Origin: a virus | DNA: 64,000 nt | Strand: one strand, 5' to 3' | Virus record (IMG/VR): IMGVR_UViG_3300023179_000031 | Location: 58,467 to 122,466 of that record | Part shown: piece after piece, positions 2,179 through 32,655 of the stretch | Layout of the letters: each line of letters begins with the position of its first letter | How positions within the stretch are numbered: position 1 is the first letter of the stretch | The notes under the pieces: generated by a model | The model's input: the letters and a program-made list of their open reading frames with translations, nothing else | Databases searched by the model: none | Told to the model about the DNA's origin: nothing | Translations under genes and position numbers: made by a program

Positions 2179-3036
2179 ATGAACGACAAATTGTTAACTA
2201 TTGGCATGGCGACATATGACGATTATGATGGTGTTTATTTTACAACACAAGCATTAATGCTATATCATGATATTCTTAAAAATATAGATTACGAAATATT
2301 GATTATAGATAACAATCCACATGGTCAACACGCTTCTTTAGTTCGTGATTTGACCCATTGGATGAGCGGCAGAGGTAGATATATCCCATATGAAAACAAA
2401 ACAAGCACAGCAGTAAGAAATGAAATTTTTGTAAATGCGAATGGCAAATATACAATATCATTAGATTGCCACGTTCTTTTAGCTCCAAATAGCATAAATG
2501 CTCTATTGGATTATTATTCACAAAATCCAGACTGTAAGGATATAGTGCAGGGTCCAATGTTGTATGATGATCAAATTAATTATTCTACGCAGTTTGATCC
2601 CGTGTGGCGTGGAGATATGTATGGCATTTGGGGTTCTAATAAAGAGGCATACGAGTTAGGAAAACCATTTGAGATCCCAATGATGGGTCTTGGTACGTTT
2701 TCTTGTGAAACCAAGAACTGGAGAGGATTTAATAAGAGCTTCAAGGGTTTTGGTGGCGAAGAAGGATATATACATGAAAAATTCAGACTCAATGGTGGTA
2801 AAGCTATATGCTTGCCACAATTTAAGTGGACGCACAGATTTGGTAGACCAAATGGTGTAAAATATCCACTTGTGTTAGAAGATAGAATTTGGAACTATTT
2901 TGTTGGATGGCTAGAGCTAACACAAGATCCAGAACATAAAATGATTCGTGATACTTACGAACATTTTAAGAATAAGATACCACCAAATAGTATAGATAAT
3001 ATTTTACATCTAGCTATTAATGAGGTTTTGTCATGA
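2179..3036 (+). CDS. GT-A glycosyltransferase with DxH and GGE motifs (polypeptide GalNAc-transferase-like)
   Basis: The N-terminal fold is GT2-like (EILIIDNNPHG, residues 39-49). The metal motif is D96-C-H98 (DxH) instead of the usual DxD. Downstream are GFGGEEGYIHEKFRLNGG (190-207) and WTHRFGR (217-223). In GT27 polypeptide GalNAc-transferases, DxH, WGGEN and a later His in GHVFR form the Mn and donor-binding site, and all three elements have a counterpart here in the same order. GT7C-type galactosyltransferases also carry a GGE motif, so the sugar and acceptor are not settled. A good ribosome site (AAGGA) precedes the ATG. The stop overlaps the start of the radical SAM gene (ATGA), so the two are coupled. 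Confidence 0.75.
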   Translation: MNDKLLTIGMATYDDYDGVYFTTQALMLYHDILKNIDYEILIIDNNPHGQHASLVRDLTHWMSGRGRYIPYENKTSTAVRNEIFVNANGKYTISLDCHVLLAPNSINALLDYYSQNPDCKDIVQGPMLYDDQINYSTQFDPVWRGDMYGIWGSNKEAYELGKPFEIPMMGLGTFSCETKNWRGFNKSFKGFGGEEGYIHEKFRLNGGKAICLPQFKWTHRFGRPNGVKYPLVLEDRIWNYFVGWLELTQDPEHKMIRDTYEHFKNKIPPNSIDNILHLAINEVLS

Positions 3037-10462: not shown

Positions 10463-12124
10463 ATGAGAAAGAAAAGGATTCTATTTTGCAGCGAAGCAAC
10501 GTTTCTCAATACTGGATATGCAACATATACTAGAGAAGTATTGAATTATTTGCATGGAACAGGTAAATATGAGTTGGCAGAGCTAGCTGCATATGGCGAA
10601 AGAAATGATCCAAGAGCTAGATCTATTCCTTGGCGTTTTTATGGTGTAACACCGCCAAAAGAAGCTAGCGACGAAGAAAAACAAAGATATGCCTCTATTC
10701 CAACAAATCAGTTTGGAGAATATGCTTTTGAAGGTGTATGTCTAGATTTTCGTCCAGATATAGTTTGTGATATTAGAGACTTCTGGATGTTAGATTTTGC
10801 TGAAAGATCTCCATATAGAAACTTTTTTAAGTGGGCTATTATGCCAACTGTTGATGCTGCACCGCAAGCAAGGCAGTGGATAGCAACATATCAATCTGCT
10901 GATGCATGTTTTACTTATTCAGATTGGGCTGGAGAAGTTCTCAAAAAACAATCTGGTGGATTAATTAATTACTTAGGAAGCGCACCACCTTCTGCTCATG
11001 CTGCTTATCAACCAATTCAAAATACAGATAGCCTAAGAGAATATTTTAATATAGATCCAGATACAAATATTATCGGAACAGTTATGCGTAATCAAAGACG
11101 CAAATTATATCCAGATTTATTTGCTGCATTTAGAATGCTATTAGATAAAGTTGAAGACAAGCATAAGTATATACTATATTGTCATACTAGTTATCCAGAC
11201 ATGGGCTGGGACTTTCCAGAATTACTACAACAATATGAGTTGTCTTCTCATGTTATGTTTACATATGTTTGTCCAGATACTGGAAAGCCATTTCCATCTA
11301 GATTTAGAGGAGCTATAGCACAGTCTCCATTTACTGGAAAGTATAACTGTGCAATGTCAAATGTAAAAACTGGACTTAGCTATGAAGATCTTTCAGTAAT
11401 TATAAATCTATTTGACATATATGTTCAGTATGCTAACTGTGAAGGTTTTGGATTGCCACAAGTTGAGGCTGCTGCCTGTGCAGTTCCAGTAATGGGTACT
11501 GATTATTCAGCGATGGAAAGTGTACTAAGGCAACTTGGCGGTATTCCAATTAAGCCAAAGGCTCTATACAAAGAGCTTGAAACAGGATGTTTTAGAGCAG
11601 TTCCAGACAATGAATTAGCTGCACAAAAGCTATTTGAGTTTTTCCAGCAACCAAAAAATCTAAGAAAAAGAATGGGATTTAATACAAGACAGGCATTTTT
11701 AGAACATTTCCAATGGGATAAAACTGGATCAATGTGGGAAAACTATTTTGATAGTGTTGAGATTCAGCCAGAAGAAAAAACTTGGAAGTCTTTTCCTCGT
11801 ATTAATTATCCAAAGCCAAAACCACGGCAGCTTCCAGAAGGTATTTCCCATGAAGAGTTATCCAAGTGGCTAATAACAGATGTTCTCTGTGAACCAGAAA
11901 AAGTTAATTCTTTTATGCACGCTAGATTAACAAGAGATTTAATGTATAGATGCTCTACCGCAACAACCGGTGGAATGTATTTCAATGAAAGTTCTGCAAA
12001 TTTTGATGCTAAAAACATAAGGAACCCATTTAATTTTGATATGGCGTATGAACATATGGCTGCTTTGTGTCATAGAAGAAATAATTGGGAACAAAAAAGA
12101 GCGGAGGCGTTTGGTCTATCATGA
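10463..12124 (+). CDS. GT-B glycosyltransferase (GT4-like), first gene of glycan block
   Basis: This 553-aa protein has a GT-B layout. The C-terminal nucleotide-sugar site shows the E-x7-E pattern (CEGFGLPQVEAAACAVPVMG, residues about 325-345). Around residue 210 is MRNQRRKLYPDLFAAF, the segment starting the second Rossmann domain. It should transfer a sugar from an activated donor. Donor and acceptor are unknown. The C-terminal ~110 residues after the GT core are an extra region without a recognised domain. It begins 3 bases after ssb and overlaps the next gene by ATGA, starting a run of eight coupled genes. Confidence 0.75.
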   Translation: MRKKRILFCSEATFLNTGYATYTREVLNYLHGTGKYELAELAAYGERNDPRARSIPWRFYGVTPPKEASDEEKQRYASIPTNQFGEYAFEGVCLDFRPDIVCDIRDFWMLDFAERSPYRNFFKWAIMPTVDAAPQARQWIATYQSADACFTYSDWAGEVLKKQSGGLINYLGSAPPSAHAAYQPIQNTDSLREYFNIDPDTNIIGTVMRNQRRKLYPDLFAAFRMLLDKVEDKHKYILYCHTSYPDMGWDFPELLQQYELSSHVMFTYVCPDTGKPFPSRFRGAIAQSPFTGKYNCAMSNVKTGLSYEDLSVIINLFDIYVQYANCEGFGLPQVEAAACAVPVMGTDYSAMESVLRQLGGIPIKPKALYKELETGCFRAVPDNELAAQKLFEFFQQPKNLRKRMGFNTRQAFLEHFQWDKTGSMWENYFDSVEIQPEEKTWKSFPRINYPKPKPRQLPEGISHEELSKWLITDVLCEPEKVNSFMHARLTRDLMYRCSTATTGGMYFNESSANFDAKNIRNPFNFDMAYEHMAALCHRRNNWEQKRAEAFGLS

Positions 12125-13233
12125 AAATATTGTATATAGCACATTACAAAGAGGGTAGTGGGTGGTCTAGGGCTGCTCTAGATTATATCTTAGCTTTAGA
12201 TCAAAATGGTTTTGATGTAGTTTGTAGGAATGTACAGTTAACATCTACTGAGCATCCCGTACCAGAGAGAATACATGAATTAGAATCTAAACCTTTAACT
12301 GGGGTTGATGTTTGCATACAGCATCTTCTTCCTCATCATATGATTGGGACTAAAAAATTCAAAAAAAATATCGGCGTTTTTGTTAGCGAGACAGATAGTA
12401 TAAAACACACATCTTGGTTTACATTTCTAGCAAACGTTGATCAAATTTGGGTTCCAAATTCTGATAATAAACTAAGGCTAACTACGGATGGTTTTAAAAA
12501 TGTTGAAGTTGTTCCATACGCTTTTGATCTATCAAATTATAAAGACAGGCCAAAAATAAATCTTTATAGTGCTAACAATAAGTTCAAGTTTTATTATATT
12601 GGCGATCTAAATGATAGAAAGAATTTAGCAGGAATTATAAGGGCATTTAATAGTGAGTTTTGTAATGGTGAGCCAGTAAGTCTAGTTATTAAAATAAGAA
12701 AGTATGGCGTACAACCAAAGCAATTGCATGATGCTTTCGTGAAGTTTTCTCAGCAGATAAAATCTCAGTTAAGAATTCATAAGAAGCTAGAACACTATCC
12801 ATCAGAGATAGTAATAACAGCAGATGCTGGAGATGATGTTATACATAGTTTACATAATACATGTGATTGTTTTGTTGGTCTTTCTCATGGCGAAGGCTGG
12901 TCTATACCAGCGTTTGAATCAATGTGCTATGGTAAAACTCCCATATGTAGCAATGAAGGTGGACCAAAAGAATTTATAGACGCTAATGATATTAATACCG
13001 GCTCTTTAATTGATGGGGTATACTCTGTCTGTTCTCAGAATGATCCAGCTTTTGGCGATATTTTTACAGGTAGAGAAAACTGGTTTCAACCAAGCGAACA
13101 ATTAGCCAAAAAAGCTATGAGGTTTTACTACGAAAATTCTCACAAGATAGATAGATCTATCGGATTAAAAACAGCAGAAAAGTTTAGTTATCAAAATATA
13201 GCTAAGAAAATAAAGGATGTTCTAGATGAGTAA
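12121..13233 (+). CDS. GT-B glycosyltransferase (GT4-like)
   Basis: The N-terminus MKILYIAHYKEGSGWSRAAL is a typical GT-B nucleotide-fold start with an acceptor-site Gly-rich turn. The C-terminal GEGWSIPAFESMCYGKTPIC (about residues 256-275) is the E-x7-E donor site. I chose ATG 12121, which overlaps the previous stop as ATGA, over an upstream in-frame codon at 12085. It probably adds a sugar to the same glycan as its neighbours. Donor specificity is not visible. Confidence 0.78.
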   Translation: MKILYIAHYKEGSGWSRAALDYILALDQNGFDVVCRNVQLTSTEHPVPERIHELESKPLTGVDVCIQHLLPHHMIGTKKFKKNIGVFVSETDSIKHTSWFTFLANVDQIWVPNSDNKLRLTTDGFKNVEVVPYAFDLSNYKDRPKINLYSANNKFKFYYIGDLNDRKNLAGIIRAFNSEFCNGEPVSLVIKIRKYGVQPKQLHDAFVKFSQQIKSQLRIHKKLEHYPSEIVITADAGDDVIHSLHNTCDCFVGLSHGEGWSIPAFESMCYGKTPICSNEGGPKEFIDANDINTGSLIDGVYSVCSQNDPAFGDIFTGRENWFQPSEQLAKKAMRFYYENSHKIDRSIGLKTAEKFSYQNIAKKIKDVLDE

Positions 13234-14212
13234 AGTAAAAAGAATTATAGATTTAGCTAATAGGGAAGTTGATAATAAGATATATAACATCTTAACATTC
13301 CCAACACATGAAAGATACGAAACACAGTTAGCAAAAACTGGACATAATTTTTATGCTCTAAATATTAAGGATGCAAAAAAGTGGAATGAGGGTCAGACCC
13401 CGATCCCTATAAACTATCATATGCTACCAGAAAACAAGATATGTGAATTTTTGAATTATGATTTCATCTTGGTGCAAAGTAGATATTGGCAGTATGAAAT
13501 TGCTTCTAATATTAATAGAAGTTTGCAGCTTCCAATGATCGTATTGGATCACACTTTGCCACCAGAACTTTCAGAAAATCAACTAGAAGTATTAAGAAGT
13601 ATGTACGGAAATGTTAATGTTTTTATATCTGAGTTTTCACAAAACTCTTGGAACATCAACGCCAACTCTTTAGTAATTCATCATGGGATTGATAGTAACT
13701 TATTTAGTCCAAAAAATATTAAAAAAAATAAGTATGTCTTGACGGTTGCAAACGATTTCATCAAAAGAAATTACTGTCTTCATTATGACCTATGGTGTGA
13801 ATTAACCGATGGACTTGATAGCAGAGTTGTTGGAGAGACAGAGGGTTTATCCAAATCAGCTTCATCTATCGATGAGCTAGTTGAAGAATATAACAAATGT
13901 CAAGTATATTTTAATACATCAACAACCCCAATTCCTATGTCATTACTTGAAGCAATGTCGTGTGGGTGTGCTGTAGTTACTGTCAACGCTAGCATGATGC
14001 CAGAGATCATTAAAAATGGCGTCAATGGATTTATTACCAACGATAAAGATGAGCTTAAGAAATATCTAGTTGAAATTTTGAATAATGATGATCTCAGGGA
14101 AACTCTAGGCAATAATGCTAGAAAAACAATACTAGAGAAATTTTCTGAACAAGCTTTTATCGACAAATGGAATTCAGTCTTTGATAATATTTATGAGGTA
14201 TCAACACTATGA
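13226..14212 (+). CDS. GT-B glycosyltransferase with altered E-x7-E motif
   Basis: GT4-like C-terminal features are present (SLLEAMSCGCAVVTVNASMMPEII, about residues 240-263, then NGVNGFI). The first Glu of the E-x7-E donor motif is replaced (TTPIPMSLLEAMSCG), so activity or donor choice may differ. HHGIDSNLFSP near residue 155 is the usual segment before the second Rossmann domain. It overlaps the preceding gene by 8 bases and the next by ATGA. Confidence 0.7.
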   Translation: MSKVKRIIDLANREVDNKIYNILTFPTHERYETQLAKTGHNFYALNIKDAKKWNEGQTPIPINYHMLPENKICEFLNYDFILVQSRYWQYEIASNINRSLQLPMIVLDHTLPPELSENQLEVLRSMYGNVNVFISEFSQNSWNINANSLVIHHGIDSNLFSPKNIKKNKYVLTVANDFIKRNYCLHYDLWCELTDGLDSRVVGETEGLSKSASSIDELVEEYNKCQVYFNTSTTPIPMSLLEAMSCGCAVVTVNASMMPEIIKNGVNGFITNDKDELKKYLVEILNNDDLRETLGNNARKTILEKFSEQAFIDKWNSVFDNIYEVSTL

Positions 14213-15377: not shown

Positions 15378-16231
15378 AATTTTTAATAGAGAATTATGCC
15401 GGTTATGATTCAACGCAGGCATTGTATTTTCATCAACATATAAATAATTATGAAGAACATTCTGCATTAATTAGACAAAATAACATGAGTCTCTTCGACT
15501 CGTTTGACACTATTGAGCCAGATGTTTACTTATGTTCCGCCCAAAAACTTTCAAAAGACGCTTTATTATACATCAAGCAAAATCCAGATAAAGATATAAA
15601 GTTAATAGTTTGTGTGGATGGAATTTCTGATGATGATATTCAATCTATAGATGGGGCAATAAAAAAGAGTGGCGTTAATTGTCATTTCTTCTTTACTTCT
15701 TCAAACGTATCAAATAAAATAAGAACTAGGTTGGTTCAGATTAGAAATGGTGTCGATATTAATTTGCAGCCATCTCTTAAAATAGACTACAATATTCAAA
15801 AAGCCATTATTGTGAATAAGGTTACAAAGATTAGAAACTATGATGGCACATTTCATGTTATATCAAATAATCCACAGCTAAAAGATAGCGTAGACTTTTA
15901 TCTACCAATTACCATGTTGGCATCGATTTATTCAAAATATGATGAGATAATATTTACAGATATACAAGAAAATTTGTCTCAATGCTTTTTTGATGCTATT
16001 TATCATGGTAAAAAGGTTTATTACGATATAGTAGATGAAGATCAATCTAAAAAAGCTGATGAAATCATTGATTTAATTCTAAAGGTTGGCAATGGATTAA
16101 ATTACAATAATCCTAATAAATTGATAGATTTTACAGATTTAAAAAAATATGTAATAGATAAACATTCATCAATTAATAGAACAAAAACCTTATTATCTCA
16201 ATTGCCACAGAAAGTAAAACAAAATGCTTGA
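15374..16231 (+). CDS. Putative glycosyltransferase-like protein of the glycan block
   Basis: No strong motif is recognised. The 285-aa sequence alternates strands and helices (PDVYLCSAQKLSKDALLYIK, IKLIVCVDGISDDDI). Its C-terminal half (DEIIFTDIQENLSQCFFDAIYHGKKVYYDI) resembles the donor-binding end of GT-B proteins, where a small-residue-rich helix precedes a strand. The call rests mainly on context. It lies between the nucleotidyltransferase and the RgpF-like gene, overlapping upstream by ATGA and downstream by 8 bases. Confidence 0.4.
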   Translation: MKFLIENYAGYDSTQALYFHQHINNYEEHSALIRQNNMSLFDSFDTIEPDVYLCSAQKLSKDALLYIKQNPDKDIKLIVCVDGISDDDIQSIDGAIKKSGVNCHFFFTSSNVSNKIRTRLVQIRNGVDINLQPSLKIDYNIQKAIIVNKVTKIRNYDGTFHVISNNPQLKDSVDFYLPITMLASIYSKYDEIIFTDIQENLSQCFFDAIYHGKKVYYDIVDEDQSKKADEIIDLILKVGNGLNYNNPNKLIDFTDLKKYVIDKHSSINRTKTLLSQLPQKVKQNA

Positions 16232-17000
16232 TAGTAACCTTTTTTCGGTACACCTTCACCTGTATTATAAAGAGCCATCAATATCTCTTCTTAACGCAAT
16301 AAGAAAAGGATGGGATGGAAAAGTATACATATCTGTAGTAACGGGCAATGAGAATAATGATGATATAATAAAGGTGGCAAAAGAGCTTTTTAAAGAAGTT
16401 ATTGTTGTAGAAAATGAAAACAGAGGCAACGACCAATATGGATTTTATAAGTCTTTCAAGAAAAATAATGATGAAACAGACTGGATTTTTTATGCACATG
16501 ACAAACATGAAAGTAAAATGGATTGGATGCATGAGCTAATAGCCCCCATGGTAAAACACACAGAAGCTATTAATCATTTAGCTAGTCAAGAAAAAATTGG
16601 TTTAATAGCTACAAAAACTGAACAATATACGTTCATTCAAATGACTGAAGAACAATTAAATCACTTAGGTGATAGTTGTTCTCCAGAAGAAAGAATTAAA
16701 ATCATACAATCTAAACAAACGCTTGTGTGGCTTAGAGAGCTACAGAGAGCTTTAGTAAAACAAAATGATCTTCAAAATATACATGATCCAAATTCATTAG
16801 TTTTCGTTGCTGGAAATATATTTTTAATCAGAAGAAGCATATTGCAAAAATGTCACAATTGTTTGCATGAAAACTTTTTTGATAGATATTATAGACCAGA
16901 TGGTGATGTTGGTCATGGACTAGAAAGATTCTATTTCTATGCGCCGCTATGTTTAAATTTCAATGTACAACTGGTTGGAGAGGAAGAAAATAATGATTAA
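16224..17000 (+). CDS. Rhamnan synthesis F (RgpF)-like protein
   Basis: The N-terminus has VHLHLYYKE (9-17), followed by DGKVYISVVTG and IVVENENRGNDQYGF (60-74). This order (HLHLYY, a strand with ISV, then an E-N-x-G-N-D motif) is that of the RgpF family linked to rhamnose-rich polysaccharides. A WIFYAHDKHES segment (around 88-98) may be a metal or acceptor site. The protein likely takes part in building or attaching a surface-type glycan. It overlaps the preceding gene by 8 bases. The next gene's start lies inside its last codons. Confidence 0.6.
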   Translation: MLDSNLFSVHLHLYYKEPSISLLNAIRKGWDGKVYISVVTGNENNDDIIKVAKELFKEVIVVENENRGNDQYGFYKSFKKNNDETDWIFYAHDKHESKMDWMHELIAPMVKHTEAINHLASQEKIGLIATKTEQYTFIQMTEEQLNHLGDSCSPEERIKIIQSKQTLVWLRELQRALVKQNDLQNIHDPNSLVFVAGNIFLIRRSILQKCHNCLHENFFDRYYRPDGDVGHGLERFYFYAPLCLNFNVQLVGEEENND

Positions 17001-20476: not shown

Positions 20477-23400
20477 TTAACTGATTGTCATGGTCATATA
20501 CTGGGTAAAATTTGGATTGGAGTCAACTTCTGCCATATTAAAAGTATGACTAATATCGTTGTGGAAAAAGTAAAAAGCCTCATATTTATTAGGATATTTA
20601 GATCCTGTATTGTCTTCAATATTCAAAGTTGTATTTTTAGTTTCTTCTACTCTAGCTGTACCTTCGCCGCTTGAGCTAGATAATCTAGTGATTGGTGTTC
20701 TCATTTTTGGCCCTACATCTTGCTTTATTTGTTTGTATGCTTTTCCGCTAGTAAATTCAATAATTGCTGACTGTTTGTTGGTTGGACTTTTGATAGTAAG
20801 TTTATATGGATTTTGAAAATCAGTGTGTTTGAATCCTTCACCCTGCTTTCTGGGTAGTGATACATTTGCTTTAATTTTACCTTCTAAGGAAGTATCTATA
20901 GCAAAATTAAATCCAGAAATTCCACCATTACTATCAACAGCAGTTACCTCAATAACAACTCCTTTTGCCGCATCTATTTTATCGCCAACACTAAAACCTT
21001 GTCCAGCAGTATTTATGGTGGCGGAATCTTTGTTAAGACCTATTACTAATTTGTAGTAAAAAAATCCCTCATTGGTAACTAATTGCCCCCTTCTAACTGT
21101 GTTTATTCTCCAGTCTGATTCTGGAGCAAGTTTATTAGAAAAAGTTATCACAGCGCCGTCACTTACTGGAACATAGCCACCATCGCCCCATTTTGCATTA
21201 TATGATGGAATTCTAAAATCTACATCATAATCCGCAATATCTATGTTTATAGGGGGTGGCGTAGTTGTTGATGCATCTGGCGCAGACGTAGTTGTTGTGC
21301 CTGTTGTTTCTGGCCTAAATACACTAACTCTTGTTCTAGGATAGCTGAAAAGTACTCCCGGATTAAAATGTAAAACTGAAAAATATTGAGGTATAAATAT
21401 TGTTTGCTGCTCTGGCCAATAATCCCAAACCATACAGTGAAGCGCTGTAGTTCCAAAGCTATCTATACTATCACTATTAGTAGAACCCCAAATCGGTGAA
21501 TATCTAGCTTTAAAAGATGAAGTATTGTCTGTTGTCCATGCTCCAATTGAACCTAATATGGTAACAGCTATGCTGCCTCCAGCACCATTTCCAAGAAAAT
21601 TACCATACATACCAAACATTTGCTTTAAGCTTACATTAAACGTGCCACCTTTGTTCTTGGTGAAAGAATTACGAGCCGCAATAATTCCAACCAAATTTGC
21701 TCCATCTTCTGACGCTGTAACTGGTGAACGAAATACAGTAGTTGAAGCTTTTGGTTTATTTAATGGGGTTTTACTTATATAACAATCATATGGTATACCT
21801 TGAAATTGGCCAATTAGAGCATTTTCATAAACCCCACCACATTTAACTGGAGTAATAGTTGTAAGATTATTTAGTCCAAAAGATGCTAGTCTAGTATACA
21901 GATTTCCAAAAAGAGATGTTGTAGCTGGAATCGCCTCACCGGCAACGGCGTCATATCTTGTTTCATTTTTAAGAGCATCTCTTGCATTTTTCTGAAAATT
22001 TCTATCAAAAAGATATGCAGACGATAAATTTGGGCTATTAGCATCATCAGAACCAGCTAGTTCTGCGCAAAGTGGAGAAAATTGTAATTTTAATGGATTT
22101 ACTGGTTTCAATGCATACATATCTGCCGGTGAATTTATTTGTCCTAAGTAATAAGCAAAACCTTGATTATTAATTAAGTTATTGATTGATTGTGCAAAAC
22201 CCGCGTCTGAGTTGTTAATAGCTTGTATTATTTTATGAGTATCTTCAATTGGAAATCCATCTCCACCATATTTTCCATTAGTCGCTATATCTGCTGGAAG
22301 CTGTAAGAAATTAGAGTCGTTAACATTTAAGTTTGGAACCTCTTGAATTGTATGTATTGTGTTATTAGCAAAAAAATAATTTCCAGAATTAGCTTCTGGT
22401 GTGCCGCTAGAAGCTGTTGATATTCCAGTGTGTTTCCATCCAGAAAAAAAATTCGCATTAGCTTTCATTCTAGCATAACCATTAGATGAATATCCGTCTG
22501 GAAAAACTGGACCCCAAAAAATTGGAGTTTGATAATAACTAATTGTATCATTAAATGCTGGCTGCTCAACATTAATCCTTGAATAAAAATCTTGAGTTCC
22601 TGTGCCACCCTTTGTTGGTCCACTATTATCAAAGCTTGTGGTTTGAATGTAATAATTTAGTTTTCTACCTACTCCAGTAAATGTTCCTACAGAATTTAAT
22701 GTAGATATTTCTTGCTTACTGAAAAAAGTTACCTCCATTGCGCTATTAACATCAAGAAGAGAAGCATAAAACTTCGCTTTAAGCAGGTCTTGACATGTCG
22801 CTGGTAATGTGAGTGCGCCATCGGTATCACGAAAATACCAATCTGAATTAGCAATTAATTTTGTAAAACCCCATCTACCAATAGATGTTGGCTGCGGTTT
22901 AGTTTCTAAAGAGCCAAATTTTTGTACTATCCACTCACCGCTAATAAATGAGCATAAAACTATATCTCCAGCTTTAAAGCTGTCATTAGATCTATTTACC
23001 ACACTTATTTCTTCTACTCTTTTAGAACCATCACACCTTATGAGATTTGGTCCAAACATATCTGGATTGCTGCTTTGTACAGATAACGGCATAGCTTTTC
23101 CAGTTTTTCTTTGCCCTAAATATTTTTCGCTACTTGGATCAAAATACGTGGTATTTGCCGCGTTATTTAAATCTTCGTCAGTCAAATTTACTCCGACTAT
23201 ATTAGCTGGTTCTAAATCAGTAAGTAATCTAGCTATTTGTTGATTTGCAGATTCCCAAGAGCCAGTGACTTCATTCCAACTTAATCTAAGTGGTCCAGTT
23301 ACAACATTGTCAATATCATTATCTCCACCCTTTGTTGCATCAACAAAAGTTCCAACGCTTGGAAAACCATTAACCACCTCTAGCCTAGCGTTTTGACTAT

Positions 23401-24001
23401 TTCTATATGAAACTTTTCTTCCGCTAGGAAGTCTAGGTGTTGCAGTAATGAGCGGAGAACCCTTTTGTGTTACAACTCTATCATTTTTTCCTTTTCCAAC
23501 TCCATTAAAATAACATTTTAATACAAGTTTATCATCGCTATTTTTAAATCCAACATATCCCTCAAGGCTATTTTTAATATCTTTGATTTGTTGATCTTTT
23601 GAAGGATCTTTATTAGTATCAATTTGAGCATTTCCACTTTCATGATAATCTATTAATGACATTAATTCTGTTTGATATATAGAAGTTTCTGTATATTTAC
23701 TTCCATCATATTTATGATATTTCCCAATAATATCTGTTAAATCTAGAGCGTCCATTATAGTGGCCGGTATAGTTGGAGAACCGCCGCCACCGCCGCCGCC
23801 TCCGGGAGAAGCTGTGGTTGTGGTGGTTGTTGAAGATGTTCTACTTAATACAACCTGTTTTCCAAAACTTGTTTTGACAAACTCTTCATAGCCACTTTTA
23901 GTTAATGAGCCAACACCATAATCTTGAAAATGCTTATCTAGAATGATAAATACATGATTATTATGATATGCATTTGCTATATTACCTTGAAAAAATCCCA
24001 T
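20477..24001 (-). CDS. Large tail protein with Thr and Gly tracts
   Basis: The 1174-aa protein has two low-complexity linkers: TTTTTTAS followed by a run of eight glycines near residues 60-80, and TTGTTTTSAPDASTTTPPP near residue 915. Between them is a long beta-rich region with many short Asn/Thr/Gly turns. The C-terminal ~230 residues (FRIPSYNAKWGDGGYVPV onward) look like a separate domain. I chose ATG 24001, which has GGAG six bases upstream, rather than the in-frame ATG at 24013 without a ribosome site. It is one of three adjacent proteins with mucin-like Thr tracts. Function is unknown. Confidence 0.6.
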   Translation of the reverse strand: MGFFQGNIANAYHNNHVFIILDKHFQDYGVGSLTKSGYEEFVKTSFGKQVVLSRTSSTTTTTTASPGGGGGGGGSPTIPATIMDALDLTDIIGKYHKYDGSKYTETSIYQTELMSLIDYHESGNAQIDTNKDPSKDQQIKDIKNSLEGYVGFKNSDDKLVLKCYFNGVGKGKNDRVVTQKGSPLITATPRLPSGRKVSYRNSQNARLEVVNGFPSVGTFVDATKGGDNDIDNVVTGPLRLSWNEVTGSWESANQQIARLLTDLEPANIVGVNLTDEDLNNAANTTYFDPSSEKYLGQRKTGKAMPLSVQSSNPDMFGPNLIRCDGSKRVEEISVVNRSNDSFKAGDIVLCSFISGEWIVQKFGSLETKPQPTSIGRWGFTKLIANSDWYFRDTDGALTLPATCQDLLKAKFYASLLDVNSAMEVTFFSKQEISTLNSVGTFTGVGRKLNYYIQTTSFDNSGPTKGGTGTQDFYSRINVEQPAFNDTISYYQTPIFWGPVFPDGYSSNGYARMKANANFFSGWKHTGISTASSGTPEANSGNYFFANNTIHTIQEVPNLNVNDSNFLQLPADIATNGKYGGDGFPIEDTHKIIQAINNSDAGFAQSINNLINNQGFAYYLGQINSPADMYALKPVNPLKLQFSPLCAELAGSDDANSPNLSSAYLFDRNFQKNARDALKNETRYDAVAGEAIPATTSLFGNLYTRLASFGLNNLTTITPVKCGGVYENALIGQFQGIPYDCYISKTPLNKPKASTTVFRSPVTASEDGANLVGIIAARNSFTKNKGGTFNVSLKQMFGMYGNFLGNGAGGSIAVTILGSIGAWTTDNTSSFKARYSPIWGSTNSDSIDSFGTTALHCMVWDYWPEQQTIFIPQYFSVLHFNPGVLFSYPRTRVSVFRPETTGTTTTSAPDASTTTPPPINIDIADYDVDFRIPSYNAKWGDGGYVPVSDGAVITFSNKLAPESDWRINTVRRGQLVTNEGFFYYKLVIGLNKDSATINTAGQGFSVGDKIDAAKGVVIEVTAVDSNGGISGFNFAIDTSLEGKIKANVSLPRKQGEGFKHTDFQNPYKLTIKSPTNKQSAIIEFTSGKAYKQIKQDVGPKMRTPITRLSSSSGEGTARVEETKNTTLNIEDNTGSKYPNKYEAFYFFHNDISHTFNMAEVDSNPNFTQYMTMTIS

Positions 24002-24003
24002 AG

Positions 24004-27000
24004 TTAACTCCATGAACTAAGTTTGTCTGATCCTTCGATTCCCTGAGAATTCATTTCTTGTATCATGTCTACATTATTTCTAGCTACAACAGACATATTT
24101 GGATGATCTTCAAAAGAAGCTGGTGATTTGTCTTCGATTAAATTTGTTGATGCAGAATTGTAAAATTTAAAACCAAAAATTTTAGCATTATGATTAAGAA
24201 ATTCAATGCCTTGTATAAGTAGATTTGAAGACATCATTGATGCTTCTATGTGGCGTTCGCTTAGTTGCGTATTAACGCCGCCCTGTAAGTTTGTTCCATC
24301 ATCAACTAAGAACGAGTTGACATTTTGTGGAAGAACAGAAATAACAGAAGTATCTACGGGTTGTGATGCTAAACCTCCAGTAACTAGATCTGTATTCATG
24401 CTATCATATCTCATAGAATTTTCAATATTTTTGTAAAGTTGTTGATAATTAATATTTGATTGATTTTTACCAATACCTTTTCTAATTAAAGCATTTTTTT
24501 CGTCTCTTTGTTTTTGTCTATTTCTACTTATATTAGAAATATTATCTAATTTTTGTTTTTGCATTTTTCCAAAACTGGCTGTATACAAGTCCATTTTATA
24601 TGTAGTTTTTATTCCAGCTTGAGATACATCTACAGATATATTAGTTACTAATGGGCCTGCATTACCAAGAGATCTTGCCAAGGCTACTCCACTTGGAGCC
24701 GCTGGAACAACAAAGCCACCCCTTTCAGAAACAAGCATAGCGCTAGTACCAAACGCTGAATGCATTTGTCCAACAGCGTTCATTAAATCAAATCCATTAT
24801 AATTCCAAGGTGCCAAATTCTCATCTTTAACAAATTCTAATTTTCCACCAACTTGGTCTGTAGATACATAAGATGATAACCAAGGACCATAGCATCTTTC
24901 AGATGATCTCAATGGTATAGCCACTAAATCTGGATAAACTGGCGACGGAGATGCGGCAGTAATTTTATTCGGTAAAGAAAATGTAAGACCCTCAAAAGTT
25001 TTGTCAATTGCGGCTTCAGCGTCTGGGCCAAGACCTTCAGAAGACAATGTGCTATGAATATCTCTTTGTGTTCCGCTTGGTAATGCTGGAACATCAAAAC
25101 CATCCACACCTTGGACTGTATCTAAAAGTAAAAAGTGTTTTAAATTTGCTGGAAATACTTTTTCTTTAAGGCTATCTCTATATCTTGAAGTTACTGTTGG
25201 AAATATTCTATTTGGCAGCGTGATCAAAGCGTAAACATTGTCTGTGTCTAATTCAAAGTTTGGATTAACAACGGTAATGCTCGAATTTGTTATTGGTGCC
25301 GCCGTTGTTGTAACATAATTCGGTGGATTTGTAGTCGAGGTTGTTGTAGTTGTTGCTTCAACGGCTTGACTTATAATATCAAAAATTCTTACATTTGATG
25401 AATAATCTGACTCTCCGGGGATTGGACTATATAATCTCTGAATATATCTAAAACTATCTTTATTAGTACATTTTATTGGATCAAATATTTTATTTGGAAT
25501 AGAAAGAGTGGTAGTATATTGAACTTCTCTTCCATGCACTTTTATTGATCGAACAGAGCTTTTTGGTGGCATGTATAATGTTTCACTAACATCACATTTT
25601 ACGAAAGCAACACATCCAGAAGGCGCTAAATCTGCCGAAGATGGATCAAACTTGTCTCCGGTGCGTGAAGAATTTTCTAATTGATAAGATATATCTGGAA
25701 TAAAATATCCAGCCTTTATAACCTGTTGAGTAAAACTATCTTTGCTTATACCATCAAATGATAGTTGTTCACTATTGTCAAATCTTACATAAGCAGAAAT
25801 TCTAGAATTTTCATTTACAAAATTTGTTGCGTCCAGTGGTATAAGTCCAGCATTTATACCATAATTAGATCCAGCACTTGAAGCTAATAAGTCGAATGGA
25901 TAATATCCACCTTGATTATCTGGAGTATAATTAGATTCATATTGTTCTGTTATTGGATTATAATTTATTTTTAATGCTCCATAATATGGATCTAAACCGC
26001 CAGACAATTGATAGTTGTTCATTCCACTGCTATCTGGCAAATCGTCAAGATTGTCACGATGCAATGGATCATTATTAATAGATCTTCTCATGAATCCAAA
26101 TGGGCCTTTTCGGATTTCCATAGATGAGCCAACACCAACGGTAGACACTGTTGTGCTATAATTAGGATTAACCCTCTTAGGAATTTTTACTAAGAATTTT
26201 TTGCCTAAACATTCATCTGCTATATTTTTTAAGAAGTTGTAAACACGGTGCGCATTTTGATTATTTCTTTGGGCGGTTCTTTGAGATCCAGCAACTATGG
26301 GTCCAAGTTGGTTAAGCATTTTTTCTATCAAAGCAATGTTTCTAGTTCCACTATTTAATGAAGTTTTGATAAATTGATAGAATTCTTTTTCTGCCTCGCT
26401 TTTTCCAGCGACATTATTATCTAATTCTTTAGATATTGAATTTAATACTCCAACAAATTCTTTATCATTTGTTGTATTTCTGAGTGCTGTAAGTTGAGTA
26501 AATAACTTAGTGCCAATAGATGTTAAATTTGCCAAACCGGCTTGAGGTATGCCAATTTGAGTAGCTCTTTTATAATACAACGGATAACCATAAGGTGGAT
26601 TGCATGGGCTTTTTGGTATACCATTTGCGTCATATCCGTTTTGGTCGGATGTCCAAACCGATCTAGGAACTGTAACCGCATAATTACTGGATACTTCTAT
26701 TGGAATATTAATACCAATGGCTGCAAACTCATTTACAGTATTGTTTATACTAGCAATATCTCTTATATCATTACTTTCAACAGACTCCATATACAATTCA
26801 TTATACATCATTAAAAATTCTGACCATCTTTCAAAGGATATTGCAGCCGCCCTCAATTCCATTTCTGTGGCAACGTAATAGTTTCCAACACCATTAGCAT
26901 TAAGAGTGCTTGAATCTAGTAATATTTGCTGATATGATCCAAAACCCTTTGGTATTGTTACAGCTTTATTTCCAAGCATACCATAATATGGTAATACTTG

Positions 27001-28539
27001 TTGTGCAAATGAAGCTTCTAATGACCACTGTGGGTATCCGCTTGTGCGCGATGTTTTGTCTCTATCTGTATTAGTTGTAAAATAATGCATATCAACTTCT
27101 TGCGCACCAACCAAGAACTTGTCTGTAACAGTGTTTGCAAGCTCGTATCCAACATCTCTATTTTCAATAGGAAGTGTTAATGAGTCTAAATATGTCTTAA
27201 TAGCAGTTAATGACGGTGGTGACGATTTATCTATAGCGATTACTTTGATAATGCCAGCAATTATTTCTTGTGGTTTGTTTCCTGCAATTTTACCATTATT
27301 GTAGTTGTATAATGCTTGACAAGCTGGATGATTTATTACCGGAAGCAAAGTTACAAATAATTCCCAATTTAATATTTCACAAATTTCTAAACATAGATCT
27401 AAAACATTTATCTGATCATAATCTAAAAAGTAAAACTGTGGTAAAACAGGAAGACCAGTTAAATCAACAACATAATTCATCCCTCTAAAATTAATATATC
27501 CTCCAAAACCAGCATCTTTATATTCTTGAGGCATTTGACCGTCAAAACCAGACATGGCATTTATAGCTTGCACTATTCTGTAATACGGTATACCCTGTTG
27601 ACATCTCCTAGATCTACCAGTTCCTGTGATTGGGAATTTTGTTGGAAAAGTACCAATTGCTGATTGATTAAATTCAAATTTTACAGAATCTTGATATAAA
27701 GTATTTGAAGATGGAATTCCTCGCGGATAATACATGTCTGTTCCAACAAAACCGTATGATCCATCACTATTTTTGATTTTTTTTAACACAGACGCATTTG
27801 ATCCACCGTAATAACTTTCATATTGTGATGAATTAAATTCTAAGAATCCAAAAATATTAAGTATATTTTGTCCACCATATGTTGAGCCTGCGTAATTATT
27901 AAGAATAAGCTGAACATTTGATAAAACTTCTCTTGGATCAACAATTTGCGCTGAATATATTGGTGTTCCCGCTGAACTTTTATTTTGAGTGAATGTTTGT
28001 AATATCCCACCAAAAGTAAAATGATCTCTAGCATAATTACCTTGAGATGAAGTAAAATCATATAAATCATCAAATGGTTTTAAGAATGCATCTTGAACAG
28101 AAGCTCTTTTTGCCCCAAAACTAAAAAATACCGGACTGCCAACTGGCGGTGGCATGAATTGATCTTTAACGCCATTATGGTATACATCTTGACCTCTACC
28201 AAGGCCAGATCCATCAGACTTATTATATTCATCTTCAACAAGCTGTATTCCAAGAGTTGAACTACTATCACCAAATCCAGCGTTTACACTAAAACTAGAT
28301 ATAGATGCGCCAAGAAATGTTTGTTGTTCATATGTTGGATACGTACCGCCAGCAACACTAAGATCTGTTAAAGATAATGAATTTGGATCAACTGTCGTGG
28401 TTGTAGTTGTTGTAGTTGTTGATGTAGTTGTTGTAGTAGTAGTTGTTGTAGTAGTAGTTGTGGTGGTTGTAGAAGTTGTAGCACCATTTGGATCTGGAGT
28501 CGTGTTTATTGGTGGGTATGGTGGAATAAATAATGTCAT
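24004..28539 (-). CDS. Large tail protein with N-terminal poly-Thr tract
   Basis: The 1511-aa protein opens with a Pro-rich start (MTLFIPPYPPINTTPDP) and then a stretch of about 30 threonines (residues about 20-50) broken only by Ser. A second Thr tract (ATTTTTSTTNPPNYVTTTAAP) lies near residue 1060. The rest is a long region without a recognised domain. Residues about 1360-1400 are charged and helical (KMQKQKLDNISNISRNRQKQRDEKN). An AAGGATATATT site precedes the ATG. By position it belongs to the tail tip or adhesion device. Confidence 0.6.
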   Translation of the reverse strand: MTLFIPPYPPINTTPDPNGATTSTTTTTTTTTTTTTTTTSTTTTTTTTTVDPNSLSLTDLSVAGGTYPTYEQQTFLGASISSFSVNAGFGDSSSTLGIQLVEDEYNKSDGSGLGRGQDVYHNGVKDQFMPPPVGSPVFFSFGAKRASVQDAFLKPFDDLYDFTSSQGNYARDHFTFGGILQTFTQNKSSAGTPIYSAQIVDPREVLSNVQLILNNYAGSTYGGQNILNIFGFLEFNSSQYESYYGGSNASVLKKIKNSDGSYGFVGTDMYYPRGIPSSNTLYQDSVKFEFNQSAIGTFPTKFPITGTGRSRRCQQGIPYYRIVQAINAMSGFDGQMPQEYKDAGFGGYINFRGMNYVVDLTGLPVLPQFYFLDYDQINVLDLCLEICEILNWELFVTLLPVINHPACQALYNYNNGKIAGNKPQEIIAGIIKVIAIDKSSPPSLTAIKTYLDSLTLPIENRDVGYELANTVTDKFLVGAQEVDMHYFTTNTDRDKTSRTSGYPQWSLEASFAQQVLPYYGMLGNKAVTIPKGFGSYQQILLDSSTLNANGVGNYYVATEMELRAAAISFERWSEFLMMYNELYMESVESNDIRDIASINNTVNEFAAIGINIPIEVSSNYAVTVPRSVWTSDQNGYDANGIPKSPCNPPYGYPLYYKRATQIGIPQAGLANLTSIGTKLFTQLTALRNTTNDKEFVGVLNSISKELDNNVAGKSEAEKEFYQFIKTSLNSGTRNIALIEKMLNQLGPIVAGSQRTAQRNNQNAHRVYNFLKNIADECLGKKFLVKIPKRVNPNYSTTVSTVGVGSSMEIRKGPFGFMRRSINNDPLHRDNLDDLPDSSGMNNYQLSGGLDPYYGALKINYNPITEQYESNYTPDNQGGYYPFDLLASSAGSNYGINAGLIPLDATNFVNENSRISAYVRFDNSEQLSFDGISKDSFTQQVIKAGYFIPDISYQLENSSRTGDKFDPSSADLAPSGCVAFVKCDVSETLYMPPKSSVRSIKVHGREVQYTTTLSIPNKIFDPIKCTNKDSFRYIQRLYSPIPGESDYSSNVRIFDIISQAVEATTTTTSTTNPPNYVTTTAAPITNSSITVVNPNFELDTDNVYALITLPNRIFPTVTSRYRDSLKEKVFPANLKHFLLLDTVQGVDGFDVPALPSGTQRDIHSTLSSEGLGPDAEAAIDKTFEGLTFSLPNKITAASPSPVYPDLVAIPLRSSERCYGPWLSSYVSTDQVGGKLEFVKDENLAPWNYNGFDLMNAVGQMHSAFGTSAMLVSERGGFVVPAAPSGVALARSLGNAGPLVTNISVDVSQAGIKTTYKMDLYTASFGKMQKQKLDNISNISRNRQKQRDEKNALIRKGIGKNQSNINYQQLYKNIENSMRYDSMNTDLVTGGLASQPVDTSVISVLPQNVNSFLVDDGTNLQGGVNTQLSERHIEASMMSSNLLIQGIEFLNHNAKIFGFKFYNSASTNLIEDKSPASFEDHPNMSVVARNNVDMIQEMNSQGIEGSDKLSSWS
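28394..28480. repeat. Low-complexity (GTT/GTA)n tract encoding poly-Thr
   Basis: Imperfect trinucleotide repeats on the plus strand read as Thr codons (ACA, ACT, ACC) on the minus strand. Codon types are mixed, so the tract is not a simple homogeneous repeat. Slippage would change length in whole codons only. Confidence 0.85.
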
Positions 28540-28872: not shown

Positions 28873-31800
28873 TTATTTTTTTGGTGGCGTAAGACTGTTT
28901 TTACTAACATTTGTTTTATTATCTTCTCGTACTTTAAAATTAGGATCTTCAAAATTTGCTACGATTGTTGGTAATAAATTGGATTTTACAATACCCGGAG
29001 TTTTAGTGTCATTATTTACTGGAAGTTGATATGTTCCTACTGGTGGTTTTGGTATCCTTGTTGTTGTTGAAGTTGTTGTAATCGTTGTAATACCAGTTGG
29101 AATAATTGGTGCTAAAGTTGTTGTTGTTGTTCTTGTAAAGATGTTATTTTGTGGTTTTATTGTGGTTGTAGTGATGATGGTTGGCATTGATGTGGTATAT
29201 ATTGGCTGAAATATTGTCGTGGTAATATAGGGGTTCAGTGGGTTTCGTGTTGTGGTTGTGGTGGGAGCTTTAGTAGTTGTCGTACTTGTGGTTGTCGTTG
29301 GAATGGCTGTACCAATGAAAGAAACTGTCTGAATATTAATTTCATTTTTTGGCGGAATTGTCACATATATGATATAACTATAAGTTAAAGTTCCATTTAT
29401 TATTGTTTTGTTAAGTACAGCCTCGACTGGAAAAGAACAATGAACACTTGGTATAATATCAAAACCATATCCATTATCTGGCCTTAAAAATATTTCACCA
29501 AGTCTAGCTCGCTTACCAACAGATAATTCGCTTTCTAATGTTAGCGATTCCGTGTTTAATTTACAGTTTTGAATAATATTTGTAAGACGAACAGAAAAAG
29601 TGTTTTTTTCTGGAGGAATTGTTGTTGTCGTTGTTGTTGTAATAGTAGTTGTAGTAGGTATAGGTATTGCTTTGCCACGTATAGTTAATTTTTGATAGTT
29701 ATTGTCTCCGATTTTTGGGATTGTTCCATATACATAAACATAATAGTAACATTTTCCACCAAAACATTCTGTTTGAAGGCTTGCATTCAGCGGTGCAAAC
29801 GCATTGAGAATTGATAGATTTTCTAGTCTAATTTCATATCCATCGTCTGGATATATAGAAACTAATGCAAGTTGAAAACCGGCTCCAATTGGTAACAAAG
29901 AAGACGCTAACGTTGTATGACTTAGCGTTGCGTTTTCAATCTCGTCAATAAATTCTACAGAAAAAATATTTGATGGTGGTCTGGTTGTTGTGGTTGTGGT
30001 AACAGTAGTTGTTGTGGATGTAGTTGTTGTGGTAGATGTTGCGGGAGCGACAGTGGTGGTTGTAGTAGATACTACGGGAGCATTGGTAGTTGTTGTAACA
30101 ATTGGGGTTGCTTTCCCGCGTATAGTTAATTTTTGATAGTTTTTATCTCCAATATTTGGAATTATACCATCCATGTTAATGTCATAATAATATTTGCCAT
30201 TTACATACGATATATTAATTGACGCATTCAGGGGTGGAGATCTATTAAGAATAGATACATTTTCTGCTTTAATTTCATATCCTTTATCTGGATATATGGA
30301 AACAGATGGAATTGTAAAAGCTTGACCGGGACTTAAAAGCGGTGACGATACATTTGTCTTGCTTAGTGTTGCATTTGCAATTTCATTTACAAGCTCTACA
30401 GAAAACGAGTTGTTTGGCGGTTGAGTTGTAGTCGTTGTTGTAGTAATGGTTGTAGTTATAGCCCCATCGCCCTTTACAACTAAATTAATAGGTATGTTCA
30501 AAGTAACATCTTGATCTAAAAATTTACTCAAGTATGGGTATGTATTATAATTATCATAATCATATTGGACAAGATATAACCGCGTGTAACCTGTTGCCAG
30601 TTTTGCACTTAAAAGTCGAATTCTACCAATAATAAGATTGTTTGCATTTCGAATATACAAAATTAACCCCGCTGGGGATGAAAATATTTCGTATGGGCTA
30701 GATGGGTTAAATTGAACAAAATATTGAATTTCTGCTACAATTGATCCAGGTTCCACAGATGCAGAAGAAAATGTTTGAGTTTTATTGCCAAAAAAATAAA
30801 CAATATCGCTTGCATCAGCGCCATTTTGAAATTTAGCAGATGGATAAAAATTAACTGTAATATTCTTTGGTGGAGAAATTTGTTTAAATATTATCTTTAT
30901 GGCAACGTTGAAAGATCTAGCAACGTCTAATCGCGGAGTAGATGTGGATGCGTCGGCGGAACCTTCTACAACAAAAGAGCGATCTACTGGATCAAATTTA
31001 ACTATACCAGTATCAACAATTTGTCCAGCAGAATTTGTTAAATAAAAATTTTGTCCATTTGGATATCGCACTTCTTTAATTTGTAATAATGAATTTTGTA
31101 TTGAATAGTATATCTTTTGAGTACTAAAAAATTTATTTCTATTTCCACATGCTGATAGGGCGTTATTAACTATTGTAAAAGGTACTGTAGTATCACTTAT
31201 CTGTGTTCCATCTTCAAATTCAGCAGAAGTAATATAATTTAATGTAACGCACGGTGTCTCTCCGGGTTTTGAAGTTGTTGTAGTTGTTGTAGTTGTTGTA
31301 GTTGTGGTTGTTGATGTAGTGGTAGTAGTTATGGTAGTTGTTGCTGCCGGTATAGTGGTTGTAGTAATAGCGCAAGTGGATCCATTAATTTCTATAGTAA
31401 TGTCGCCGTCACCATCAAACCAAGGTAATTCATAGAAAGTACTAGTTAAAATATACCTAGTTCCTAGCGCTGTGTCTGTATCAAAATTAAATGTAGGAGT
31501 ATTATTATATGAAAAAGTTAGTGCTTGTGATGGATTTCTTTTTCCAAAACTATAAAATCTTGCAGATAAACTTGACCTCATTTCTCCGCTAGTAGAATTA
31601 TATCTACAATCAAAAGTATAGCCATTATTTGCAGTAATTGTTATTGAAACAGATGATCTTGGTATTGTCCAAGGCGGTCCAGAAGATGAATCTGCAACAA
31701 TTTTAGATCTAGACACTCTAATGGTAGAGTTTGGAACATTATTAACATATTCAATGTTTAGTGTACGCAATTTAGGTGCGGCGGTTGTTGTAGTGGTTGT

Positions 31801-32655
31801 TGTCGTGGTGGTTGTTGGTCCTTTATATTTTAGGATCAATTTTATTGGTACAGTGTAAGATCTATTTATATCTAGATTAGCTGGCCAATTAATCCCATTT
31901 ATTGTGCTGATTATAAATCCACGAAATCCATAATCTATTTTAAGTGTACCTATGTCGTTTAAGCGTGAATCACGAATAGTAACAGTCTGTGAATTAGGAT
32001 AATTTATGTATAATACTTCGTAGTTGGTGTCCGCTAACGTGTATTCAGCAATATTATTTAAGGAGCTAGTATCGCCACAAAGTGTTATTGAATTATTACC
32101 CTTCCAAGATATTGCGCCCCGTATTGGTGTTCCATTTTCTAATTCTGATGATGGAGTCAGGTCTATGGTTACGCATTTAGGTTTTACAGTTGTGGTTGTT
32201 GTGGTGCTAGTAGTAGAATTAATAATTATATCATAATAGCTTGCGCTGTTTAATATACCTTCATAATAACTATATGGTAATAATATTGAATTACAAGTTG
32301 ATGGTGATGGGTAGCCTATAGTCTTAATGGTTACACTTGCCCCAACAGCATAGCGAATATAAACTCTTCCATCTTGATCTTGCGCAAAATAAGTTTCATC
32401 GGCTATAATTGGATCAGTAGTAACAGTAAATTTATTAGATGCATAATAATCTGTAGACAAAGATGGCAAATTTGAAAAATTATATCTAAGATTAATGTTT
32501 CTAGATGAAGATATGTAAACTACAACATTAAATTCCCAATTTTTTGTTAAACATATTGATGGTATATCTCCTGTAATTTTAAACGAAATTACACCAGTGG
32601 CGCTATTTCCTTTTCTTTGAACATTTTTGGTTATAAGTCGAACTGAATACGCCAT
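28873..32655 (-). CDS. Mucin-like tail protein: repeated beta domains joined by seven Thr tracts
   Basis: The 1260-aa protein is a chain of beta-rich domains separated by poly-Thr linkers. Three related modules near the C-terminal side begin (S)FSVEL/FSVEF/FSVRL and end with a TIRGKA- or FIGTAI-like strand. Modules earlier in the chain share a pattern of PSSELENGT, TSAEFEDGT and PSAKFQNGA. The C-terminal ~150 residues are Thr/Pro/Ile-rich. No lectin or enzyme motif is recognised. I chose ATG 32655, one base after the preceding stop, over GTG 32664. Such Thr tracts are typical O-glycosylation targets in other systems. Confidence 0.65.
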   Translation of the reverse strand: MAYSVRLITKNVQRKGNSATGVISFKITGDIPSICLTKNWEFNVVVYISSSRNINLRYNFSNLPSLSTDYYASNKFTVTTDPIIADETYFAQDQDGRVYIRYAVGASVTIKTIGYPSPSTCNSILLPYSYYEGILNSASYYDIIINSTTSTTTTTTVKPKCVTIDLTPSSELENGTPIRGAISWKGNNSITLCGDTSSLNNIAEYTLADTNYEVLYINYPNSQTVTIRDSRLNDIGTLKIDYGFRGFIISTINGINWPANLDINRSYTVPIKLILKYKGPTTTTTTTTTTTAAPKLRTLNIEYVNNVPNSTIRVSRSKIVADSSSGPPWTIPRSSVSITITANNGYTFDCRYNSTSGEMRSSLSARFYSFGKRNPSQALTFSYNNTPTFNFDTDTALGTRYILTSTFYELPWFDGDGDITIEINGSTCAITTTTIPAATTTITTTTTSTTTTTTTTTTTTTSKPGETPCVTLNYITSAEFEDGTQISDTTVPFTIVNNALSACGNRNKFFSTQKIYYSIQNSLLQIKEVRYPNGQNFYLTNSAGQIVDTGIVKFDPVDRSFVVEGSADASTSTPRLDVARSFNVAIKIIFKQISPPKNITVNFYPSAKFQNGADASDIVYFFGNKTQTFSSASVEPGSIVAEIQYFVQFNPSSPYEIFSSPAGLILYIRNANNLIIGRIRLLSAKLATGYTRLYLVQYDYDNYNTYPYLSKFLDQDVTLNIPINLVVKGDGAITTTITTTTTTTQPPNNSFSVELVNEIANATLSKTNVSSPLLSPGQAFTIPSVSIYPDKGYEIKAENVSILNRSPPLNASINISYVNGKYYYDINMDGIIPNIGDKNYQKLTIRGKATPIVTTTTNAPVVSTTTTTVAPATSTTTTTSTTTTVTTTTTTRPPSNIFSVEFIDEIENATLSHTTLASSLLPIGAGFQLALVSIYPDDGYEIRLENLSILNAFAPLNASLQTECFGGKCYYYVYVYGTIPKIGDNNYQKLTIRGKAIPIPTTTTITTTTTTTIPPEKNTFSVRLTNIIQNCKLNTESLTLESELSVGKRARLGEIFLRPDNGYGFDIIPSVHCSFPVEAVLNKTIINGTLTYSYIIYVTIPPKNEINIQTVSFIGTAIPTTTTSTTTTKAPTTTTTRNPLNPYITTTIFQPIYTTSMPTIITTTTIKPQNNIFTRTTTTTLAPIIPTGITTITTTSTTTRIPKPPVGTYQLPVNNDTKTPGIVKSNLLPTIVANFEDPNFKVREDNKTNVSKNSLTPPKK
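29055..29305. repeat. Thr/Pro/Ile-rich C-terminal low-complexity region
   Basis: Several (GTT/GTA/GTG)n stretches encode the Thr-rich tail of the 28873-32655 protein, interrupted by short Pro/Ile/Gln segments. Confidence 0.7.
29678..29700. repeat. 23-bp direct repeat, copy A
   Basis: The same 23 bases occur at 30119-30141. Both encode the end strand (QKLTIRGKA) of neighbouring duplicated modules, showing a duplication recent enough to keep DNA identity. Confidence 0.85.
29982..30098. repeat. Low-complexity tract encoding a Thr-rich linker
   Basis: Mixed Thr codons with a few Ala, Pro and Val codons separate two duplicated modules of the mucin-like tail protein. Confidence 0.75.
30119..30141. 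repeat. 23-bp direct repeat, copy B
   Basis: Identical to 29678-29700; see that entry. Confidence 0.85.
31273..31369. repeat. Low-complexity tract encoding the longest Thr run of the mucin-like protein
   Basis: GTT/GTA/GTG repeats on the plus strand encode an almost pure Thr run with Ile, Ser and Ala interruptions, between two beta domains. Confidence 0.8.

Follow-up and report, generated by a model that had tools for sequence, protein, structure and literature searches.

Mucin-type O-glycosylation initiated by an enzyme of the GT27 fold is generally regarded as a eukaryotic trait. In phages, virion glycosylation has been reported for mycobacteriophages, where capsid and tail tube subunits carry it at their C-termini (Freeman et al. 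2023, cited in PMC12619734), and the same source also cites phage DNA glycosyltransferases. No description of a GT27-like system of phages or bacteria together with mucin-like partner proteins was found in the open-access literature that we searched, the coverage of which is incomplete.

Here, we analyze a glycosyltransferase (GT) gene on a 64,000-nucleotide stretch of viral DNA, hereafter referred to as the window, which corresponds to positions 58,467 to 122,466 of the 122,466-base IMG/VR record IMGVR_UViG_3300023179_000031 (G000). The analysis establishes a catalytic motif and its invariance, the fold to which the enzyme belongs, and a genomic association of its family with genes encoding Thr-tract proteins. 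The recurrent pairing of such a GT with mucin-like genes, in phages as well as in bacteria, is new here. The explanation that we favor, and consider reasonably probable, is that the enzyme represents a previously unnamed prokaryotic and viral family of GT-A enzymes with a role in O-glycosylation of Thr tracts.

The enzyme gene and its structural relatives

The features of the window are collected in Table 1. The earlier note had read three elements from the sequence, D96-C-H98, GGEE at residues 192–195, and H219 within WTHRFGR (codon 2833–2835), and all are present as described. Across 85 aligned homologues, drawn from two clades of phages and from bacteria, with identities down to ~40%, D96, H98, G190-F-G192, E194, E195, Y197, W217, H219, and F221 are invariant in every sequence, and position 193 is G or A and rarely V. 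Likewise, 56 distinct close relatives retain D96, H98, G192, E194, E195, W217, H219, R220, and F221. Judged from these alignments, the DxH/GGEE/His signature is real and under selection rather than a product of chance.

Table 1. Features of the window discussed in the text, in window coordinates
Feature	Position	Strand	Basis
GT-A glycosyltransferase, GT27-like, 285 aa, ATG start	2179..3036	+	ORF, Pfam, model, structure match, conservation
DxH motif D96-C97-H98, D and H invariant	2464..2472	+	homologue alignment; aligned with DSH of GalNAc-T10
G192-G-E-E195, counterpart of GGE in WGGEN	2752..2763	+	phmmer and homologue alignments
W217-T-H219-R-F-G-R223, corresponding to the GT27 segment with the later metal-binding His	2827..2847	+	phmmer and homologue alignments
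Conserved upstream neighbors in the window lineage: dNMP-kinase-like gene (by inspection) and PD-(D/E)XK nuclease PF12705	399..2164	+	
Three GT4-type glycosyltransferases (10463-12124, 12085-13233, 13226-14212), candidate glycan-extending enzymes (inferred)	10463..14212	+	
RgpF-like (rhamnan synthesis F) glycosyltransferase, candidate glycan-extending enzyme (inferred)	16224..17000	+	
Large neighboring protein, its Thr tract weaker (9 of 20 residues), possible acceptor	20477..24013	-	
Large protein of the tail/structural region with Thr tracts reaching 19 Thr in 20 aa, candidate acceptor (inferred)	24004..28539	-	
Thr-rich protein, 17% Thr, 11 tracts of at least 5 Thr, candidate acceptor (inferred)	28873..32664	-	

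Pfam assigns the protein to PF00535 (Glycos_transf_2) only, which represents the nucleotide-binding half of GT2 enzymes (residues 10–118; 32.3 bits against a gathering threshold of 23.3), and over the N-terminal half (residues 1–118) the profiles of TarP, TarS, and chondroitin synthase match better than GT27. Similarity to GT27 was not significant, either by profile (E 0.19–0.58) or by phmmer against PDB sequences (E 0.24 for GalNAc-T10). The GalNAc-T10 alignment, insignificant on its own, pairs DCH with DSH, GGEE with GGEQ, and H219 with the His of VGHIYR. No PHROGs family matched the GT. Because the sequence profiles fall short of significance for GT27, we file the enzyme as GT27-like rather than as a member of GT27. 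The earlier note had proposed a profile search against GT27, GT7, and GT2: GT7 is rejected, there being no match to Pfam Glyco_transf_7C at E ≤ 1, GT27 remains below significance, and GT2 exceeds its threshold through PF00535.

Structure comparison places the enzyme more clearly. The AlphaFold model of the window GT has a pLDDT of 94.3 and a pTM of 0.91, and its best 50 Foldseek matches among solved structures in the PDB are all polypeptide GalNAc-transferases (best E 3.7e-15). A second aligner superimposed residues 3–285 of the model on residues 135–413 of GalNAc-T2 with a Z score of 24.1 over 257 residues at 2.8 Å, the next family being chondroitin polymerase at 18.4; the structural Z scores separate the polypeptide GalNAc-transferases from chondroitin polymerase, RmlT, GlfT2, TarS, and B4GALNT1. 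The top Foldseek and VIA matches satisfy the GT27 catalytic-domain fold. The GT domain of a bacterial homologue (L087), modeled separately, gave the same ranking with GT27 first. As far as it went, the structural comparison supports the interpretation of the earlier note for the window GT. In these models, the catalytic domain is built like those of the animal polypeptide GalNAc-transferases, with the geometry of the metal site being inferred.

The N-terminal profiles favor GT2, and the whole-domain fold is clearly nearest to GT27. An ordinary GT2 enzyme of the polysaccharide or teichoic-acid type, which remodels host surface glycans and in which DxH is merely a local variant, would explain the PF00535, TarP, TarS, and chondroitin synthase matches. 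However, these profiles cover the nucleotide-binding half only, two independent models agree on GT27 for the domain as a whole, and the DxH motif is invariant, which makes such an enzyme very unlikely in our judgment.

Threonine-rich genes beside the glycosyltransferase in phages and bacteria

A first GT query matched 339 stretches in IMG/VR, and bacterial relatives with ~36–58% identity are spread over many phyla. The INPHARED phages contained no match to the window GT, to a GT of a second phage clade, or to the nuclease neighboring the window GT, and hence yielded no cultured phage. In a quick tree, the window lineage forms one clade (support 99) and a second phage group another (support 97, L505 excepted). 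The nuclease of the window lineage found no match in 25 second-clade records either, and the second clade therefore probably represents phages of another kind.

When viral records with Thr tracts were used as seeds, a window-type GT was present in 5 of 50 (three of them strong matches) and absent from the remaining 45, compared to none in 50 records with poly-Gly; this enrichment is marginal, and without the weak matches it falls to 3 of 50. Contigs of uncultivated phages often contain long Thr runs (L155–L274), and most of these contigs lack this GT in the sequence covered. In two of the five GT-bearing records, a gene for a Thr/Pro/Ser-rich protein lies immediately 5' of the GT, and the GT relatives of these two define the second phage clade (35 clusters at 80% identity, 33 of them informative). 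Here, a Thr-rich gene is found directly upstream of the GT in 23 of the 33 clusters, compared to 11 of 945 background ORFs (p ~1e-30; background frequencies of such ORFs range from 0 to 1.2%), usually with a gap of 11–16 bp. The upstream protein ends in C-x-C-[NK]-x-L-x-[FY] in 20 of the 23 cases. This tail is shared by phage mucin-like proteins that otherwise look unrelated (L477, L499, L516, L552, and others), and it is possible that it serves as a recognition tag.

Since this set had been seeded from Thr-tract records, the search was repeated with a bacterial GT (L126) that has no Thr tract nearby. Among the 46 clusters of viral loci obtained in this way, 20 have a Thr-rich gene directly upstream and six more have one within 4 kb, against a background of ~1%; about half of the remaining clusters belong to the window's own replication-module lineage. 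The relatives of L116 form a real exception, with a Thr gene nearby in only two of seven clusters.

The association extends to bacteria, whose loci were retrieved by GT sequence alone. A Thr-rich ORF lies within the locus in 28 of 62 cases, and none was found at the threshold used in the other 34. A whole-genome search of 32 bacterial genomes for runs of at least eight Thr codons gave matches in 17. In six of these (L084, L087, L089, L114, L128, and L144; genome sizes 2.4–10.8 Mb), every such run falls inside the ~10-kb GT locus, an arrangement with a probability of ~1e-10 under uniform placement, and in L140 this is true of 14 of 17 runs. Genomes rich in Thr runs (L117, L119) have no concentration at the locus, and several others have runs elsewhere only. 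The bacterial partners are mostly small proteins in which a twin-arginine N-terminus is followed by a hydrophobic stretch, by a conserved W[ST]KPVV..PAHA segment, and finally by a Thr/Pro tail. Partners of this PAHA type stand beside a GT fusion in L084, L087, L089, L090, L101, L114, L138, and others. Locus L103, which belongs to the isolate Desulfofustis glycolicus DSM 9705, likewise combines the GT with a Tat-like, Thr-tailed protein. The TAT_signal_seq model TIGR01409 scores above its cut-off in four of eight partners (L084, L087, L089, L121) and below it in the rest (L083, L101, L114, L138).

The bacterial GTs are often fused to further domains. Among 56 relatives, 26 carry an HprK-like domain (E ≤ 1e-4), nine a GT25 domain, and four a PqqD domain, and one is fused to a domain resembling nucleotide-sugar epimerases. 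The phage members have neither HprK-like nor PqqD domains. Because HprK-less phage GTs and HprK-bearing bacterial GTs adjoin genes of a similar kind, the GT itself is indicated as the enzyme that acts on the Thr-rich neighbor.

It could also be that the GT modifies a different protein, some peptide, or a glycan already in place, and that the Thr-rich neighbors are surface adhesins traveling with glycan genes. GTs acting on glycans are numerous, several of the fusions carry a second GT (GT25 or GT2), and both the Thr-tract viral records without a GT and the GT loci without a Thr gene would be accommodated. This is difficult to reconcile with the tight upstream spacing in one phage clade, with the recurrence of the pairing in bacteria, where the Tat-like partner is unrelated and the GT is thus the common element, and with a closest fold that is that of a polypeptide transferase. 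We therefore regard another acceptor as unlikely, though not negligibly so. The genomic context of the family supports a polypeptide acceptor with Thr/Ser as the modified residues.

The window lineage and its candidate acceptors

In the window lineage, the GT is embedded in a replication module, with the PD-(D/E)XK nuclease on one side and more replication genes on the other. Directly after it lies a Radical SAM/SPASM gene (3033-4019) with weak likeness to viperin-like proteins and RiPP maturases. Few relatives have this gene (L062, L278, L285, L286), and since it is rarely found next to the GT, it was rejected as a partner. Further downstream, DNA polymerase III alpha is apparently split into two ORFs (5521-7125 and 8487-10097; names by inspection), between which lie an HNH-like ORF (7162-7857), seen in the window phage, and an exonuclease-like ORF (7847-8527); the split and the exonuclease are conserved in relatives. 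Five loci (L057–L061) have genes for a dihydrodipicolinate-synthase-like aldolase and a KdsA-like synthase 3–5 kb after the GT (by inspection), which hint at phage-encoded sugar-acid synthesis. Elsewhere, the virus record encodes a ThyX-type thymidylate synthase and a UvdE-like UV endonuclease (L586:436-1080, L585:5574-6494; G000 19436, 5574).

The conserved replication and nucleotide neighbors, including the kinase, the presence of ThyX and other nucleotide enzymes in the record, and the precedent of phage DNA glycosyltransferases (cited in PMC12619734) would all be in keeping with an enzyme that glycosylates DNA bases and thereby shields the phage DNA. However, the thymidylate synthase/dCMP-hydroxymethylase family PF00303, present in 9 of 14 control genomes, is absent from 21 large records including that of the window, albeit with the reservation that these may be incomplete. 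Moreover, close relatives (43–56% identity) with HprK-like or PqqD fusions are encoded on bacterial chromosomes, and relatives in other phages adjoin Thr-tract genes. Hypermodification of the 5hmC/5hmU type is weakened by the missing hydroxymethylase family together with the chromosomal relatives, and we consider a DNA-modifying role in general to be quite unlikely.

If Thr tracts are the acceptors, as we prefer to think, they must be sought at a distance in the window phage, where the GT is not adjacent to any Thr-tract gene. The G000 genome encodes six proteins with at least 10 Thr in 20 residues, two within the window and four in the part of the record that precedes it. Where family matches exist, they are to tail, baseplate, or virion-structural families. 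Neither of those within the window (24004-28539 and 28873-32664) matches a PHROG, and tail-like is a description based on their size and position. Thr codons in these tracts are mixed (ACA 55, ACT 26, ACC 20, ACG 4), and selection is consequently inferred to act at the protein level. Runs of eight Thr codons were matched in 14 of 26 large GT-bearing records of the window lineage, 12 of them above a reversed-pattern control (G015 barely); about half of these records, many of which are fragments, have no run of at least eight. Within the lineage, mixed-codon Thr runs occur in 14 of 31 records with the GT vs none of six without it (Fisher p 0.04), a co-occurrence that is suggestive only, given that the GT-less records are fewer and shorter.

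Proposed function and comparison with known systems

We propose that the window enzyme glycosylates Thr tracts, a conclusion that we hold with some confidence, although activity and linkage are untested and the sugar is open. The suggestion of the earlier note that the enzyme starts O-glycans on protein Thr/Ser is probably right, as it agrees with the genomic context of the family and with the GalNAc-transferase fold; the acceptor chemistry is inferred. Counting against the proposal are the location of the window-lineage GT in a replication module and the unpaired Thr-tract viral records and bacterial loci (45 of 50 and 34 of 62, respectively).

According to the proposed mechanism, a metal-dependent GT-A enzyme would take a sugar from a nucleotide sugar, which we infer to be probably a UDP-hexose or UDP-HexNAc. 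Going by the inferred geometry, D96, H98, and H219 would hold the metal and the diphosphate, with E194 near the sugar. The first sugar would be placed on the hydroxyls of Thr, and also of Ser, in disordered Thr/Pro-rich mucin-like segments, after which other phage GTs may extend the glycan. The likely acceptors in the window phage are presumed to be the Thr tracts of large tail-like structural proteins, whereas in other phages the acceptor would be encoded directly upstream of the GT, and in bacteria it would be the small Tat-like, Thr-tailed protein beside the HprK-like/PqqD/GT fusion. The phage might benefit from a protective or adhesive glycan coat on its tail proteins.

Mucin-style protein glycosylation thus probably exists in bacteria and their viruses. 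A more far-reaching model, to which we give even chances, is that bacteria and tailed phages possess a dedicated mucin-type O-glycosylation machinery, in which a GT27-like initiator is paired with its own Thr/Pro substrate. This substrate would be a C-terminal mucin tract ending in the conserved C..C[NK]xLx[FY] tail in phages and a Tat-like, Thr-tailed PAHA protein recognized via HprK-like or PqqD domains in bacteria. The tails of virions and the surfaces of bacteria would be decorated by this machinery, which may have an ancestor in common with the animal enzymes. For phages, a widespread family of this kind, shared with bacteria, GT27-like in catalytic signature and fold, and located beside Thr/Pro-rich genes, would offer a means of building mucin-like tails, and it would hint at what a set of HprK-like/PqqD gene fusions, unmentioned in the literature searched, act on and what they are for. 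It also makes the origin of the animal GalNAc-transferases testable, and may supply soluble single-domain enzymes for the production of mucin-like glycoproteins in laboratory E. coli.

Among known systems, that of the mycobacteriophages shares phage-encoded glycosylation of virion proteins, but no mucin-like Thr tracts are described there. The HprK-like domain of the bacterial relatives resembles HprK-related kinase A (NCBIfam TIGR04352), which matches the N-terminal domain of the 26 fusions with E values down to 5e-29; the printed scores of 29–100 bits (82–100 for L084 and L087) lie below the curated cut-off of 200, and no description of this kinase was found in the open-access literature searched, again with incomplete coverage. 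With GT2 enzymes (PF00535; TarP, TarS, the chondroitin polymerase K4CP, and RmlT), the window GT has in common the GT-A nucleotide-binding half and the Pfam family, but it differs in having DxH rather than DxD and in its structural distance (Z 18–19 or less, rmsd often >4 Å), and GT2 enzymes have no known link with Thr-tract proteins. Compared to GT27, the window GT has F instead of W before GGE and GGEE instead of GGEN, shows no significant sequence similarity, is not in a secretory pathway, and ends with the catalytic domain, lacking the C-terminal ricin-type lectin domain typical of that family. What it shares with GT27 (GalNAc-T1, T2, T10, and Toxoplasma GalNAc-T3) is the fold of nearly the whole protein (Z 22–24), the DxH, with counterparts of the GGE and later His following in identical order as judged from sequence alignment alone, and the association with Thr/Pro-rich mucin-like proteins.
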